In this document: piece by piece, positions 3,782 to 34,341 of the stretch
Numbering within the stretch: the stretch's first letter is position 1
How the letters are laid out: the number at the start of each line of letters is the position of its first letter
Source of the DNA: Candidatus Omnitrophota bacterium
GTDB lineage: Bacteria > Omnitrophota > Gorgyraeia > 2-01-FULL-45-10
Assembly (NCBI GenBank): GCA_016935115.1
Contig: JAFGRN010000060.1
Span: 1-34,341 of the forward strand
Length of the DNA stretch: 34,341 nucleotides
Direction: 5' to 3'
Made by a program: the position numbers and the translations under genes
The notes under the pieces: generated by a model
What the model saw: only the letters and a program-made list of their open reading frames with translations
Database searches by the model: none
Told to the model about the DNA's origin: nothing

Positions 3782-4159
3782 TTGAAGACGATACTGGTGG
3801 TGGAAGACAATAAGGACCTGAGGGACATACTCAAGAAGAGGCTGGAATACGAGGGGTATCTTGTAAACCTGGCCGAGGACGGATATGTGCTTCTGGGCAG
3901 CCTGAGGTCCGGCAAAGAACCCGACGCCATCATCCTGGATCTTATGCTCCCCGGGCGCAGCGGCGTGGAGTTATTGGGCACACTCACTTCTACGTGGAAG
4001 ATGACGAAGATATATATATTTTCCGCCCATCCGGAATATCAGGAGCGGCACGGGCTTAAAAATTATGATATCGCCGGGTACTTCCTGAAATCCGACGGTA
4101 TAGATAATCTCATAACAACGATAAAAGAGGATCTCGAGGGGACAGAGTGGGAAAAGTAA
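3782..4159 (+). CDS. Response regulator receiver-domain protein (single domain)
   Basis: ILVVEDNKDLRDIL, DLMLPGRSG, FLKSDG; TTG start at 3782. Confidence 0.85.
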   Translation: MKTILVVEDNKDLRDILKKRLEYEGYLVNLAEDGYVLLGSLRSGKEPDAIILDLMLPGRSGVELLGTLTSTWKMTKIYIFSAHPEYQERHGLKNYDIAGYFLKSDGIDNLITTIKEDLEGTEWEK

Positions 4160-11820: not shown

Positions 11821-14800
11821 GTGCTTAGAAAGATCTCCGAAAGAGATATTAATATGAATATAACCACCAGAGCTAATGGGATCTCGATTAAGAGCAAGCC
11901 ATTCAAGGTGATGGTATCGCTAGTCACCCTGGTGGCTTTTTTATGTAATATGGCATTACCCGACACGGCCCGGGCTATCGAGATACCCTCGCTTCTATCC
12001 GGTGCCGCTCCGGTGCCGGTAAAAGAACTGCGTGTGGATACTTTCACCCTGTCTGAATATCTGGGACATGTCAGCAGCTCGTGGCAGGCGACGGATGACA
12101 GCGGTTTGCCGGTTAACCGGTTAGCCAGTTCGCCGGTTCAAAACCGACAAACCGACAAACTGACAAACCGGCAAACTATCATTCACATTCAGGACGCCCA
12201 CTGCAACTACGCTGCCCAAAAGAGGATTTCCGATATAATCGGGTACCTCAACGAGGAGTATGGCATAGACACTGTAAATCTCGAAGGCGGCGCAAAGGGG
12301 TACGATCTTTCCGTATTCACGGATATAGCCGACAAGGCGGTCCGCGACAAAGTCTCCGACCATTTTGTCAAAGAGGGTCTCGTAAACGGCGCCGAATATT
12401 TCGCCGTGAATAATCCCGGTAAGGTCCGGCTGTGGGGCATAGAAGACGCGAAGCTCTATATGGAGAACCTGAAGATCTACAGAGACTCCCTCATGCATAA
12501 GGAAGAAGTGGACAGGCATCTTAAAACATTAAGCCTCATTCTCTCGAATCTTAAATCGAAGATCTATCCCAAGGATCTCCTCGATTTCGACATGAAGTAT
12601 GGCGCGTACAAGGCCGGCAATCTCGAATTTAAAGAGTACCTTAACTCTCTTATAGATATAGCGAAGGGTAAGGCTATAGACATAAAGGCCCTGCCGAACA
12701 TATATCTTCTGAATCAGACGCTCGAGGAAGAGGGCGGTATCGATTTCAAAAAAGCCAATAGAGAGCGCGACGAGTTGATCGACAGGATCCAGAAGAAACT
12801 CTCCAGGAATGCCCTCGAGGAGTTCGTGAAAAAGACGGTCGACTTCAGGTCCGAAAAACTCTCCCAAAAAGAGTTTTATTCCTATCTCATGGCAAAATTC
12901 GATGAGAGCGAGATTCTTCCCGCGGAATTCCGGGAGCTACGGAAGTACATCTCATACATCTCCATGTACGATGCAATAGGCAAAGATAAAATAATGGGAG
13001 AGATCGAGGCGCTCGAGAGCAAGATACGGGATGCGCTATGTCGCAATGACGAAGAGAGGCAGTTATGCGCGCTATCGAAGAACCTAATCTTATTGAGAAA
13101 AATCTTTGGCATCACTTTAACTAAGAGCGACTACAGTTATTATAAAGCGAACGAAGACGCTTTCGATATCCGCAGTTTCACCGCGTTCATAGACAGGAAT
13201 GCGCCGCTCTACGGCATAACCGCGAAACTCGATAACAATGCCGGCAACCTCGACCAATACCGAAGGGATATCGGGCGTTTCTACGAGTATTCTTTCAAGC
13301 GCGACGACGCGTTTATCAATAACATCACATTCCAAAACCGGCAAACCGGCAAACCGACCAACTGGCAAACTATATTGATAACCGGCGGTTTTCATACGGA
13401 GAATCTGCTGGAGCTCTTCAAGAAGCAGAATATCTCATACATCTCCATAATGCCCAACTTCAAAAATTACGACGGCTACAGCAGCCCGTATTTCAAGATC
13501 TTAAGCGGCGGATCGGTGGACGAGGTAGAGCAGGCCATCAGCCCTTACATATCTGCCATGCAGGTTCCGAGCCACCTGGCCCCCATAGAGGGGGCAGTGG
13601 ACGCGGCCGGGCTTAAGATGTTTGCGGTGAAAGTCGCCATTCAGCGTATTATGGCGGAGAAGAGCATCAATGGTGTCTCCATTGTGAAGGACGGCAAAGT
13701 GCTTGTCAAAGTCGGGGATCCGACGGATGCCGAGAAGAACTCCGTTGAACTGGATGAGCTTCTGAGTATGGCCAGGGCGAAGCCAGTGCCCGCCGCCGCA
13801 CCGGTTGCCGTGCCGGCCGAGCCGGGCAAGTCTGTCTCCGCGCCGGCTGCGTTGAAAGTCACAGATTTTGGAATAGCCAGTGATAATAGCGTAGGGGTGA
13901 CACGAACGCAGCACGTGGCATTTCATGAAGCTGGTCGTTTTCCCGATATTCTAAGCGATATCGCTGCCACTATGGGTGCGAAAACGCGGGCAGACGGAAA
14001 GTTTGACCTGCGAGAAACCGTGAGACAGGCAGGTGGTCGCATAACAACCGTATACGGAGAAGTATACATAACCGACGACGGGATATTGGTAGTAATTGAT
14101 AGCCGTTTTCAAAAAGACCATGCCGGCAGGGGTGAACAGGCTGTTTATGCTAGCACAAACGCGAAGGCGCAACACGAGATTGCCGAGTTACGGTTGTGGA
14201 AAGATTTTGCGCTGCAAAACGGTATTGCTACTTCCGAAGATATACAAAGTGGACTCCTGGGGATGAAATTGAGAGAGTGGATGAATGACAAATCCGTTGG
14301 CAATGCTGTATTGGCTGAAAGAGGGCGACTAATAGGAGAGAGGGCTAATGAGTTCCATAACAGAGGGTTGGCCGTCGAAGTAGAATATAATAAAGTCCTA
14401 CTCGGAAAACTGTACGTAAATAAAGGCGTCGTGGATATGCTCAAGGTTCTTATAGCGGGAGGGCTCCGGAAGGAATTAAGCCGGGAGGCATTGACAAAAT
14501 GGATCGAAGGCATAACCGTTTCATCGGCATCGTATATCTATAAAAATTGGGAAACCGCCGGTATTCTTTACCGTGGTACACTTCCAAATGGTAATGAGAT
14601 ATATATTTTAGTAAGAATGGAAAATGATAAAGTGAAAAGCGTTTCTATCAACATGGACCATATCCGTGGCCCTATGTATGCGGGAGCTCAATATCTGCAA
14701 GTACCCAACGCCTTGGCTGAGTCCGCGGCAAAAGCACTAGCGTCTAAGGGTATCCAGGTTTCCGCTGAGATTCAGGCAACCGGATTTGTAGTAATAAAAC

Positions 14801-17445
14801 CATTTATTGAGTCGGAAGATGACAAGGCGGATTTTGAGAAAGCACTCGACAACTATCCCATCATCAAGGAATTTTTGCTCATCATGATAGAACGAGGCAT
14901 AGGCCCTCACCTGACGCAAAGTTATGCTGTATTTAGGCAAGCAGGGGGCGCACACCAATGGCGCGGAAATATCTATAAAGGCACATATACTTCTCACCAT
15001 ATCAGCGAAATGATACATGAGTATATACATGCCGTTTACGACAAGCTCAGCGAAGACCAAAAAAGAGAGATTGAATTATATTTCAGACAGAATCATCCGG
15101 AGCTGGAAAATATATTTAAGAAGAGGTTATATAAAGGGCAAGACGTTAATTATGCAACAGAGGGCCTGGCCTATTATCTTCAGATGGCTTTGGATGGAAA
15201 GCGGGAAAATGCAGGATTTAAGACTGAAGATGGAAAAGTGTTCAGCCTAGTCCTGGCAAACGAAGATCTGGATTTCTTCGAAAAGCTCGGTCTGATTAAC
15301 GAGGGAATGAAAAATAAGATCAAATATCAACTTGCGGAGAAGCAAGGTGATATTGCTCAGCAGCGGATTATTGCGGAAGCTCTCCCCGAGAAAGTGGAAC
15401 AGGCCGCAGAAGTCGATTTCATCGTCGCCAGCGAAGGGCCTGCCGCCGCGCCTGTTATCGAGGTTACGCCGGCCCCGCTTGATGATTTTGTTAAAAATTC
15501 CACCGTATTTAAAAAGATAGCCGATGCCTTGCTCAAAGAAACCGCCGAGAAGGACAAAGAATTTAGTTTGGTTATAAATCCAGGAGATATAACTAATTCC
15601 GGTGCAGATGAGCTCACATCAAAAATAGTTGAGGGTGACTATAATGGGGCAAGAGGTAATAGAGATGCAAACATGGGAGGACTAGAGATTCATACACATC
15701 CTCTATCAGTATGTGCAATCCCAAGCGACGGCGATATTAATATTATGAAAACAAAAAAAGGTGTTGCACATATGATCCTTTGGAATGATGTCATCGTTTA
15801 TGTTAAAAACGCTGAAAACATTGACTATGACAAATATCTTAGCGGAGATATGATCGAACAGCTTCAAAAGAATGCGGTAACTAAAGTATTCAAGATTAAG
15901 CGCGACAGTAATGGCTCAATTATAGATATAAGCGACATAGCCCCCGAGCACTGGTTCTCTGCGATGTTAGGGATGGATGAAGAACAGGCACCATTACAGA
16001 GTAAAAACAGGCTTAAAGATGCTTCAGAAAGAGAAAGCAATCTTATTAAAGGCTATACCAGAGAAGAACTTTGTAAGGAATTTGAAAATATTACCCACGA
16101 AATAAAAAATGCCCATATAAATTTATCTTTAACTTTCAGGCCTTACAGATCAATGGTGGAAGCGAATGAAGCTCTTAAGCAGTTTATCGGTGGACAAGAA
16201 AACTCACGTCAGCTTCTATCCGCAGCGGAAAAATCTATGAAGCCAGGAGTTAAAAATATATCAGACCTTCAACGTATCACTGAAACGCTTAAAATTCTCC
16301 TTGTGAGGCGGTTAGTTATTGTAAAAAAACTGAAGGAAAATAACATTAGCATACCGACTTCCGAACCGGTAAAGGATGTTGCTACGCTTATCGTTATTGC
16401 ACAAAAAGAATACAACTATTTCCTAAAATACGAGATGGCATTGGCTCAGATTAATAACGATTTGGCTAATAATGATGTAGAATCTGCACTTAAGATTGCT
16501 CGGGAAATACTTGCTCAGCAGATACCAGTTTATATGTATATCTTGGGAGGAGGGTGGCAACATGTCGCATTCGAGCCTGCCGCCGCACCGGCGATACTCG
16601 GCGATATGCCGCAGATTGGCGCGGACCCGAGCCTCGAGGAAAGATTGGCGCTCGCGGCTTATGTGGACGGGAAGGCGAAAGAGGCAGGAGTCCGAAAAAC
16701 GCTCTCAGCGATTAAGTCGTCATTAACTGAGCGAAGTCGCGATGTCGAATTGGCGCTCGGAGCGGCGTTGGAGACAAAAGCCCTGGGTTATGTGACGCCC
16801 GAGGATATGAATGTCGTCACCCAATTTGTCGATCTGCGTAAGAGCAGTCCCGCTAATACCGCGACCAAAGAGATATCAAGCTATTTGCGCAAACCCGCCG
16901 GAAAATATAATGGGGCGAACTGTGAATCCGTAATAGGCAAGATAGGCATAGAAGAGAGTGAAAGTGATGCGGAGGAGATAATAAAGACGATTGATCGAAC
17001 GATAGATACTATGAATTCCGGTAAAGATCCCAGGGCTATATTTGAAGTGCCCTCGTGGATGGAAGATCGTTTTCTCGCTGCATGCCGCGCCAAGGGGCTA
17101 TTAAAAGAGAACACCAAAGGAGTCAGTATAATGCTGAATGATCCCAGGATGAGAGTCCAGATTTTGGCCCAGGAAGGAGACCCCGATGTCAGGACTCAAT
17201 TTAAGTTTGGCATCTCGGCGCTCGAATGGGTTCGCAGGGAAGAAAAAGGCATAGCTAGGGAAGATGCCGATAAAGCGCTATTAGACTTGATTGCATTTAT
17301 GGTTGACGGCGATCTGGGCCCTCGCGATCCCGGCTCAATTCTTAAAGATCTGTTATTCAAAGGTGTTATGAAACTTCGCAAGATAGACTGGAGTATCATG
17401 GACAAGGATCGTAAGGCTTGGGAAGCCGTTGCGCAGGCGCTGTAA
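11821..17445 (+). CDS. Giant (up to 1874 aa) exported mosaic protein: N-terminal EreA/ChaN/TIKI-like hydrolase-type module, HExxH metallopeptidase module, JAMM/MPN-type module, C-terminal unknown module
   Basis: Signal/TM segment; IIHIQDAHCNY...NLEGG...LWGIED...ILITGGFHTENL; HEYIH (15016-15030) plus downstream ATEGLAYYL; HTHP-x7-SDGD (15691-15735); Pro/Ala linkers separate modules. Start GTG 11821 or ATG 11854. Confidence 0.75.
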   Translation: MLRKISERDINMNITTRANGISIKSKPFKVMVSLVTLVAFLCNMALPDTARAIEIPSLLSGAAPVPVKELRVDTFTLSEYLGHVSSSWQATDDSGLPVNRLASSPVQNRQTDKLTNRQTIIHIQDAHCNYAAQKRISDIIGYLNEEYGIDTVNLEGGAKGYDLSVFTDIADKAVRDKVSDHFVKEGLVNGAEYFAVNNPGKVRLWGIEDAKLYMENLKIYRDSLMHKEEVDRHLKTLSLILSNLKSKIYPKDLLDFDMKYGAYKAGNLEFKEYLNSLIDIAKGKAIDIKALPNIYLLNQTLEEEGGIDFKKANRERDELIDRIQKKLSRNALEEFVKKTVDFRSEKLSQKEFYSYLMAKFDESEILPAEFRELRKYISYISMYDAIGKDKIMGEIEALESKIRDALCRNDEERQLCALSKNLILLRKIFGITLTKSDYSYYKANEDAFDIRSFTAFIDRNAPLYGITAKLDNNAGNLDQYRRDIGRFYEYSFKRDDAFINNITFQNRQTGKPTNWQTILITGGFHTENLLELFKKQNISYISIMPNFKNYDGYSSPYFKILSGGSVDEVEQAISPYISAMQVPSHLAPIEGAVDAAGLKMFAVKVAIQRIMAEKSINGVSIVKDGKVLVKVGDPTDAEKNSVELDELLSMARAKPVPAAAPVAVPAEPGKSVSAPAALKVTDFGIASDNSVGVTRTQHVAFHEAGRFPDILSDIAATMGAKTRADGKFDLRETVRQAGGRITTVYGEVYITDDGILVVIDSRFQKDHAGRGEQAVYASTNAKAQHEIAELRLWKDFALQNGIATSEDIQSGLLGMKLREWMNDKSVGNAVLAERGRLIGERANEFHNRGLAVEVEYNKVLLGKLYVNKGVVDMLKVLIAGGLRKELSREALTKWIEGITVSSASYIYKNWETAGILYRGTLPNGNEIYILVRMENDKVKSVSINMDHIRGPMYAGAQYLQVPNALAESAAKALASKGIQVSAEIQATGFVVIKPFIESEDDKADFEKALDNYPIIKEFLLIMIERGIGPHLTQSYAVFRQAGGAHQWRGNIYKGTYTSHHISEMIHEYIHAVYDKLSEDQKREIELYFRQNHPELENIFKKRLYKGQDVNYATEGLAYYLQMALDGKRENAGFKTEDGKVFSLVLANEDLDFFEKLGLINEGMKNKIKYQLAEKQGDIAQQRIIAEALPEKVEQAAEVDFIVASEGPAAAPVIEVTPAPLDDFVKNSTVFKKIADALLKETAEKDKEFSLVINPGDITNSGADELTSKIVEGDYNGARGNRDANMGGLEIHTHPLSVCAIPSDGDINIMKTKKGVAHMILWNDVIVYVKNAENIDYDKYLSGDMIEQLQKNAVTKVFKIKRDSNGSIIDISDIAPEHWFSAMLGMDEEQAPLQSKNRLKDASERESNLIKGYTREELCKEFENITHEIKNAHINLSLTFRPYRSMVEANEALKQFIGGQENSRQLLSAAEKSMKPGVKNISDLQRITETLKILLVRRLVIVKKLKENNISIPTSEPVKDVATLIVIAQKEYNYFLKYEMALAQINNDLANNDVESALKIAREILAQQIPVYMYILGGGWQHVAFEPAAAPAILGDMPQIGADPSLEERLALAAYVDGKAKEAGVRKTLSAIKSSLTERSRDVELALGAALETKALGYVTPEDMNVVTQFVDLRKSSPANTATKEISSYLRKPAGKYNGANCESVIGKIGIEESESDAEEIIKTIDRTIDTMNSGKDPRAIFEVPSWMEDRFLAACRAKGLLKENTKGVSIMLNDPRMRVQILAQEGDPDVRTQFKFGISALEWVRREEKGIAREDADKALLDLIAFMVDGDLGPRDPGSILKDLLFKGVMKLRKIDWSIMDKDRKAWEAVAQAL
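12104..12178 (+). repeat. In-frame repeat insertion, copy 1: inverted repeat plus 8-bp (CAAACCGA)n tandem
   Basis: GTTTGCCGGTT (12104-12114) / AACCGGCAAAC (12166-12176); (CAAACCGA)-type units ending CAAACTAT; encodes QNRQTDKLTNRQT. Confidence 0.75.
13331..13372 (+). repeat. In-frame repeat insertion, copy 2 of the same element
   Basis: CCAAAACCGGCAAACCGGCAAACCGACCAACTGGCAAACTAT aligns with copy 1 over about 41 bp with about 5 mismatches; encodes QNRQTGKPTNWQT in the same frame. Confidence 0.75.
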
Positions 17446-33893: not shown

Positions 33894-33932
33894 GGGACGT
33901 TTGTACCCATATTTAACCTTGAAACTGTCCCC
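33894..33932. repeat. Imperfect GGGAC...GTCCC inverted repeat, related to the 17510-17570 element
   Basis: GGGACGTTTG...GAAACTGTCCCC; same GGGGACAGT core as 17551. Confidence 0.35.
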
Positions 33933-33947
33933 GGCATGTGCTATATT
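33919..33947 (+). promoter_or_regulatory. Sigma70-like promoter for tRNA-Asn
   Basis: TTGAAA (33919-33924), N17, TATATT (33942-33947), about 36 nt before the tRNA. Confidence 0.5.
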
Positions 33948-33982: not shown

Positions 33983-34341
33983 TCCCCTGTAGCTCAGTCG
34001 GTAGAGCATCTGGCTGTGCACGAGGCGCGAAGCGCCGAGTGCAAGACTCGGCGCACAGCGTCTAAAGTTAGCAGCCTCCGGTGGAAATGCCGGAGTGAAA
34101 AGCGAGTAAATTCAGGGAACGCCCGAAGAAGCTCCATCGGGTCAATCCTGAGCCAAGTCCCGAGCAAAGCCGTAAGGCCGCGCCGAGGGAAAGGTGCAGA
34201 GACTAGAGACTCGCTGCCTAAGGTCTATGGTTCGACAGACTCACCATTAAGACTATGGCAATGGTATAGTCCGACTCTCCGAGTAATCGGAGTCAGATCG
34301 TAACCAGAGTGTCCGAGGTTCGAGTCCTCGCGGGGGAGCCA
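33983..34341 (+). tRNA. tRNA-Asn(GUU), split gene: exon 1 33983-34017, exon 2 34301-34341 (encoded CCA)
   Basis: Acceptor TCCCCTG/CGGGGGA, D-arm GCTC AGTCGGTA GAGC, anticodon stem TCTGG/CCAGA, joined loop CTGTTAA (GUU), T-arm CGAGG TTCGAGT CCTCG, discriminator G, CCA. Joined exons give a perfect 76-nt tRNA with U1-A72 and G73 as in bacterial tRNA-Asn. Confidence 0.93.
34018..34300 (+). ncRNA. Group I intron (IC3/tRNA-Leu-intron-like), 283 nt, no endonuclease ORF
   Basis: IGS GTTAGCAGCC (34067-34076) pairs with the exon junction GGCUGU|UAAC with G-U at the splice site; P3 AGCGAGT (34101-34107)/ACTCGCT (34209-34215); P4 TCAGG (34112-34116)/CCTGA (34147-34151); R element GGTGCAGAGACTAGA; P7 GACTA (34201-34205)/TAGTC (34267-34271); last intron base G34300. 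Confidence 0.93.

Follow-up and report, generated by a model that had tools for sequence, protein, structure and literature searches.

Introduction

In bacteria, group I introns have been reported in the genes of tRNA-Leu(UAA), tRNA-fMet, tRNA-Ile(CAU), tRNA-Arg(CCU) and tRNA-Arg(UCU) (PMC3984707, PMC8450103, PMC7717549, PMC4853749), and the tRNA-Arg(CCU) intron self-splices both in vitro and in vivo (PMC7717549). A 2014 review makes no mention of tRNA-Asn as an intron host and places all the phage group I introns then known in protein genes, despite the many tRNA genes carried by phages (PMC3984707). The 39 group I introns described in archaea, some of them with homing endonucleases, were all in rRNA (Nawrocki et al. 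2018, PMC6125680). It has also been stated, in general terms, that some tRNAs of the Candidate Phyla Radiation (CPR) and of other closed genomes carry group I introns (PMC8172020). Here we analyzed a 34,341-nt stretch of DNA from a Candidatus Omnitrophota bacterium (contig JAFGRN010000060.1, hereafter the window), at the end of which a sequence-only reading had proposed a group I intron inside the anticodon of tRNA-Asn(GUU). The window is the whole of contig C10 in a 1.40-Mb assembly of 79 contigs, 82% complete (81.87%). We conclude with high confidence that this locus holds the tRNA-Asn(GUU) gene of the cell and that the interruption is a group I ribozyme of the bacterial tRNA-intron type, derived from a homing lineage.

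Results

The terminal tRNA-Asn(GUU) gene is interrupted between U35 and U36

On the forward (+) strand, to which all the coordinates below refer, the 5′ exon of the tRNA (positions 1-35, ending CUGU) occupies 33983-34017 and the 3′ exon (positions 36-76, with the CCA encoded) occupies 34301-34341. Joining of the two exons gives a 76-nt molecule typed as tRNA-Asn(gtt) by ARAGORN, with a canonical cloverleaf, the loop CUGUUAA and a GUU anticodon. The 283-nt insert that separates them (34018-34300) falls inside the anticodon, at the bond between U35 and U36, and homologues are split at the identical bond. Its terminal base is G34300, as group I introns need; among the homologues, a terminal G was demanded by the detection pattern and is no independent evidence. 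In an Rfam cmscan of the whole window, the sole match above gathering was the group I intron model RF00028 at 34052-34293 (73.5 bits for a cut-off of 50, E = 5e-17), and this match spans the complete model (1-253). The sequence-only reading had given the same insert, tRNA identity, insertion site and terminal G, all of which are confirmed, and the RF00028 covariance search that it had suggested was passed. On all the tests run, the element acts like, and is, a group I intron.

The window stops at the encoded CCA. This is an assembly break, because another contig of the same assembly, C66, shares 85 identical bases with window 34257-34341 and continues beyond, running into a terminator-like hairpin.

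The intron core is supported by covariation

To describe the core, we used an alignment (A1) of 43 homologous cores in which the seven helices P3, P4, P5, P6, P7, P8 and P9 are named explicitly. Standard pairs made up 96.4% of 1366 cells, compared to 77.3% in shuffled alignments (none of 500 reached the real value) and no more than 48.7% with the 3′ strands slid, and 21 of 32 core pairs varied on both sides. In P3, GCGAGU (34102-34107) pairs with ACUCGC (34209-34214), and four of the six pairs change on both sides. P4 is formed by UCAGG (34112-34116, element P) and CCUGA (34147-34151, element Q), with 98.6% of the cells paired and two of five pairs changing on both sides. For P8 (34215-34218 with 34257-34260), such double changes affect three of four pairs, and for the P9 hairpin CUCCGA-GUAA-UCGGAG (34277-34292) they affect all six. 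P7, formed by GACUA (34201-34205, element R) and UAGUC (34267-34271, element S), is paired in 43/43 cores and invariant, as expected for the guanosine site, and is hence uninformative on covariation. The predicted P3-P9 core, with its P3/P7 pseudoknot, is backed by covariation. Elements P, Q, R and S thus lie where the sequence-only reading had put them, and the pairing that it proposed for P3, P4 and P7 was borne out in this alignment.

Upstream of the core, the minimum-energy structure of 34009-34099 (z = -5.1) pairs the end of the exon, GGCUGU (34012-34017), with GCAGCC (34071-34076) as P1; the P1 loop is itself folded into a hairpin stack, and the P2 hairpin (34077-34094) comes next to it. 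In this fold, the U-G wobble of P1 sits at the splice site U35. GCAGCC would serve as the internal guide sequence, and a GCAG-type guide is present in the homologues inspected. Within tRNA-Asn, the covariation of P1 is uninformative since the exon is nearly constant. A second P1 noticed by eye, in which GCUGUGC pairs with a GCACAGC copy lying upstream within the P1 loop, was rejected: it puts a U-A pair at the splice site and is absent from the predicted fold.

Related introns split tRNA-Asn in bacteria, archaea and viral contigs

We scanned bacterial and archaeal genomes, one for each species, with a pattern joining the S element to the 3′ half of tRNA-Asn. At least 119 loci were found, of which at least 105 resolve to tRNA-Asn(gtt) split as CUGU|...G|UAA. 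Among the matches listed, the split gene occurs in three Pacearchaeota and in about 14 bacterial phyla, by labels that come from metagenome bins and may be wrong: Omnitrophota, Patescibacteria (many classes), Cyanobacteria, Nitrospirota, Deltaproteobacteria, Betaproteobacteria, Elusimicrobia, Methylomirabilota, Bacteroidetes, Margulisbacteria, Planctomycetales, Chloroflexi, Cloacimonadota and Bipolaricaulota. For instance, the 861-base contig L086, labelled Patescibacteria, almost certainly belongs to Omnitrophota to judge by its exons. Short "group I introns" of 22-49 nt described in cyanobacterial tRNAs (PMC5733544) were set aside as too small for group I and outside the tRNA-Asn intron family.

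The archaeal cases (L063:1918-2176, L066:928-1351 and L151:5283-5773), two of which have HNH open reading frames (ORFs), look genuine. The G1-C72 pair of their tRNA-Asn is archaeal, a KRR1/PNO1-type KH gene lies upstream in each of the three, and TYW3 is present on one of the contigs; the RF00028 scores of the introns reached 83.1 bits in L063 and 72.6 bits in L151.

In IMG/VR, 35 viral contigs match the family (loci among L336-L370); 26 resolve to tRNA-Asn and three (L336, L357 and L358) to an interrupted tRNA-Lys. Some of the split tRNA-Asn genes are found inside large phage tRNA arrays. The RF00028 cut-off was passed by 7 of the 11 viral introns tested, and L348 passes it when searched alone (69.4 bits). 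On the 298-kb contig L339, the interrupted tRNA-Asn (3863-4146) lies inside an array with 25 intact tRNAs, among which no intact tRNA-Asn was found in the stretch read; the RF00028 score of its intron is low, at 36.4 bits (E = 8e-8), and below the cut-off.

A tree of the intron cores, of moderate support and built on a short alignment, clusters the introns by phylum yet needs 23 changes of phylum label. The archaeal introns are placed beside the Omnitrophota clade of the window (SH-like approximate likelihood ratio test, SH-aLRT 94), and Omnitrophota tRNA-Tyr introns, also at the U35 site, fall among the Asn introns. We also observed that tRNA-Tyr(GUA) of related Omnitrophota is split by a group I intron at the U35 bond (L032, L034-L036, L038, L039, L043 and L053), that tRNA-Lys and fMet genes are interrupted too, and that at least one group I intron is present in 65 of 97 relatives.

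Longer copies carry an HNH gene that the window copy lacks

Among the matches listed, 39 of 106 introns exceed 400 nt. Most of these hold in their P1 loop an ORF of about 110 aa with the form CxxCGY...HH...CANCHRE, which matches PHROG HNH families with E-values of 1.5e-26 and 4e-29 (the HNH identity is taken from PHROG_2255). At the same insertion site, one cyanobacterial copy (L166, the 898-nt tRNA-Asn intron of an uncultured cyanobacterium) encodes a LAGLIDADG_2 protein instead of HNH. By contrast with these copies, no intron-encoded homing endonuclease was found in the window intron; a 95-aa ORF that crosses it (34016-34303) was rejected as a candidate, its translation having no HNH motif.

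Close relatives with the HNH ORF are L086, L187, L190 and L200. L187, which belongs to the window's own family, has the 44-nt hairpin segment of the P1 loop (34018-34061 in the window) with a single mismatch; after it come a ribosome-binding site and an HNH ORF that is complete. L203, from the same genus, has only a C-terminal HNH piece. The endonuclease is therefore complete in L187, a remnant in L203 and absent from the window, and on this comparison the window copy is one that has lost its HNH endonuclease gene. In L086 (155-710), the HNH frame extends across the guide sequence and P2 and ends right in front of element P; the C-terminus of the HNH protein is hence encoded by ribozyme sequence as well.

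The two exons evolve as one tRNA and no intact copy was found

We compared the exons of the homologues, the 5′ exons being chosen by their D-arm sequence alone, with no pairing criterion. In 84 distinct exon pairs, all reading CTGT|TAA, the anticodon stem was 97.9% paired and the acceptor stem 99.8%. When the 3′ halves were re-dealt, the means were 74% and 75% and the maxima 78.6% and 78.7%, respectively. The real stems pair far above this level, and halves that lie 185-900 nt apart thus evolve as one tRNA.

The sequence-only reading had named a further, intact tRNA-Asn in the genome as evidence that would count against it. We looked for such a gene and did not find it: the tRNA scan of this 82%-complete draft gave 31 tRNA hits with no other tRNA-Asn among the typed ones, and BLAST of the joined tRNA returned, apart from weaker matches to other tRNAs, only the two halves and the C66 overlap, which belongs to this very gene. 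A seeming second tRNA-Asn in C66 was discarded, as it is the 85-bp overlap with the window end. Among 97 relatives, strict patterns detected 29 interrupted and 23 intact tRNA-Asn genes with one genome in common (p = 0.001); these counts are lower bounds, as the patterns miss tRNA-Asn in about half of the relatives. We also noted that in G001 and G003, two genomes of the same genus that are about 99% complete, tRNA-Asn was not found by pattern or BLAST, either intact or interrupted.

The locus could still be a dead relic, that is, a pseudogene with a non-splicing intron, whose role is taken by a different tRNA-Asn within the 18% of the genome that the draft lacks; several isoacceptors are indeed absent from this 81.87%-complete assembly. 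Such a relic is nevertheless very unlikely. Both exons and all the core helices are intact, and compensatory changes have kept the stems of the two exon halves complementary in the different phyla. Furthermore, no intact tRNA-Asn was detected in 45 of 47 intron-bearing genomes, in a pattern-based search that would miss a strongly divergent second gene, nor was any tRNA-Asn seen among the typed hits or by pattern in the single-contig Omnitrophota genome G050 (39 tRNA hits).

Besides the limit of that search, several points weigh against a spliced tRNA-Asn gene from a homing lineage. The genome is a metagenome-assembled draft and the gene sits at a contig end; splicing is read here from the DNA and not from RNA; the P1-loop HNH proteins match the Pfam HNH family weakly, below or near the cut-off; and tRNA-Asn DNA is a predicted target of the HNH enzyme.

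Other readings of the interrupted gene

The sequence-only reading had warned that a conventional tRNA finder may miss this gene. In its default mode, ARAGORN called no tRNA on the window and the interrupted gene went undetected. In its intron mode (-i), it printed tRNA-Thr(CGU), because the identical 283-nt intron can slide by 2 nt. That the gene is truly tRNA-Thr(CGU) is close to inconceivable: the slid intron would terminate in U instead of G, U1-A72 and G73 of the acceptor are of Asn type, and the homologous exon pairs agree on CTGT|TAA in 84/84 cases. The P1 U-G wobble is located at U35, and the Asn register is the sole one that joins a terminal intron G with this wobble at the splice site. 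Intact Thr genes with CGU, GGU and UGU anticodons are present in the genome, so the interrupted gene is not needed as tRNA-Thr.

Group I cores do exist in IStrons (PMC4227781), but it is extremely improbable that the tRNA-Asn intron is such a chimera, or another mobile one, moved by a transposase rather than by homing: the window intron has no transposase ORF and so no linked IS transposase, nearly all the typable ORFs of the long homologues are of one HNH type (with one LAGLIDADG), and one and the same bond of a single tRNA serves as the host site.

Surroundings of the tRNA-Asn gene

A promoter-like site, TTGAAA-17-TATATT with a TG (33919-33947), lies 35 nt upstream of the tRNA. It matches the consensus at 10 of 12 positions and is a candidate by this match only; on both strands, the region holds two promoter-like sites for 0.1 expected. 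In C66 (L312, genome G000), some 180 bp past the end of tRNA-Asn, we observed an exact repeat of 20-21 nt of the tRNA-Asn 3′ end (GAGTCCTCGCGGGGGAGCCA), which resembles the footprint of an integration at a tRNA. In several relatives, tRNA-Asn is also near contig ends. Further upstream in the window, an ORF of 1874 aa (11821-17445, + strand) is without Pfam match.

Discussion

In the mechanism that we propose, the precursor tRNA would fold so that the 5′ strand of the anticodon stem together with U35 (GGCUGU) pairs with the guide GCAGCC. A guanosine bound in P7 would then attack after U35, and the freed 3′-OH of U35 would attack after G34300, so that U35 is ligated to U36 and the GUU anticodon is re-formed. 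The intron would be a member of a homing lineage that has specialised in anticodon loops of the form CUGU|N. Copies that are still complete, with the HNH gene in the P1 loop, may spread by homing through cleavage of tRNA-Asn DNA, and the window copy, having lost this gene, would be kept by splicing alone.

On a wider scale, the CUGU anticodon loop of tRNA-Asn, and through side branches that of tRNA-Tyr, may have become a near-universal homing site for one mobile intron lineage, which would have crossed bacterial phyla and entered archaea and the phage tRNA arrays that could carry it, often sitting in the sole tRNA-Asn. We regard the case for this scenario as evenly balanced. If it is true, all Asn decoding in many lineages depends on ribozyme splicing. 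The family supplies dozens of natural substrates with which to ask why an essential single-copy tRNA so often depends on a ribozyme. Its endonuclease loss series, found inside a single family, lends itself to the study of how homing introns go through gain, decay and loss. There is also a practical consequence. Standard annotation misses the split genes: with default settings ARAGORN reports no tRNA, and with introns allowed it calls Thr. Many genomes consequently appear to be without tRNA-Asn, and this artefact bears on tRNA inventories and on checks of completeness.

For bacterial group I introns, the family brings in a further host tRNA and a further site. The sequence-only reading had taken tRNA-Asn for an unusual host. 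This stands insofar as we found no earlier report of a group I intron in tRNA-Asn of bacteria, archaea or phages in the open-access literature, although a mention elsewhere is possible; it does not stand as regards rarity, since the family is widespread and the window is not an isolated case. The introns known in fMet, Ile(CAU), Arg(CCU) and Arg(UCU) have host tRNAs that differ from Asn, and the fMet, Ile and Arg introns insert after U36 of CAU/CCU. To our knowledge, the enzyme of the Synechocystis fMet intron is not of the HNH type. Whereas the described archaeal introns are in rRNA, three Pacearchaeota carry one in tRNA-Asn, and whereas the phage introns were in protein genes, 26 viral contigs have an interrupted tRNA-Asn; within the open-access literature, these are apparently the first group I introns in archaeal tRNA and in phage tRNA.

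The closest described system is the cyanobacterial tRNA-Leu(UAA) intron. As the sequence-only reading had noticed, the two cores are alike: side by side with the Leu intron L326, elements P and Q are almost the same and R and S are similar, and by this resemblance the window intron may be assigned to subgroup IC3 (tRNA-Leu-type). Both introns are small, lie in the anticodon loop and end in G, and the cyanobacterial genome of L326 also carries a tRNA-Asn intron (L331). They differ in that the Asn intron is inserted after U35 and the Leu intron after U34, in P7 (GACUA/UAGUC in Asn, GACUC/GAGUC in Leu) and in the HNH gene that the longer Asn copies have in their P1 loop. Overall, the mechanism and the class of the element (group I, tRNA-Leu(UAA)-like) are known. 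Apparently new in the open-access literature are Asn as the host tRNA, insertion at 35/36, the occurrence in tRNAs of archaea and phages, and the HNH enzyme.
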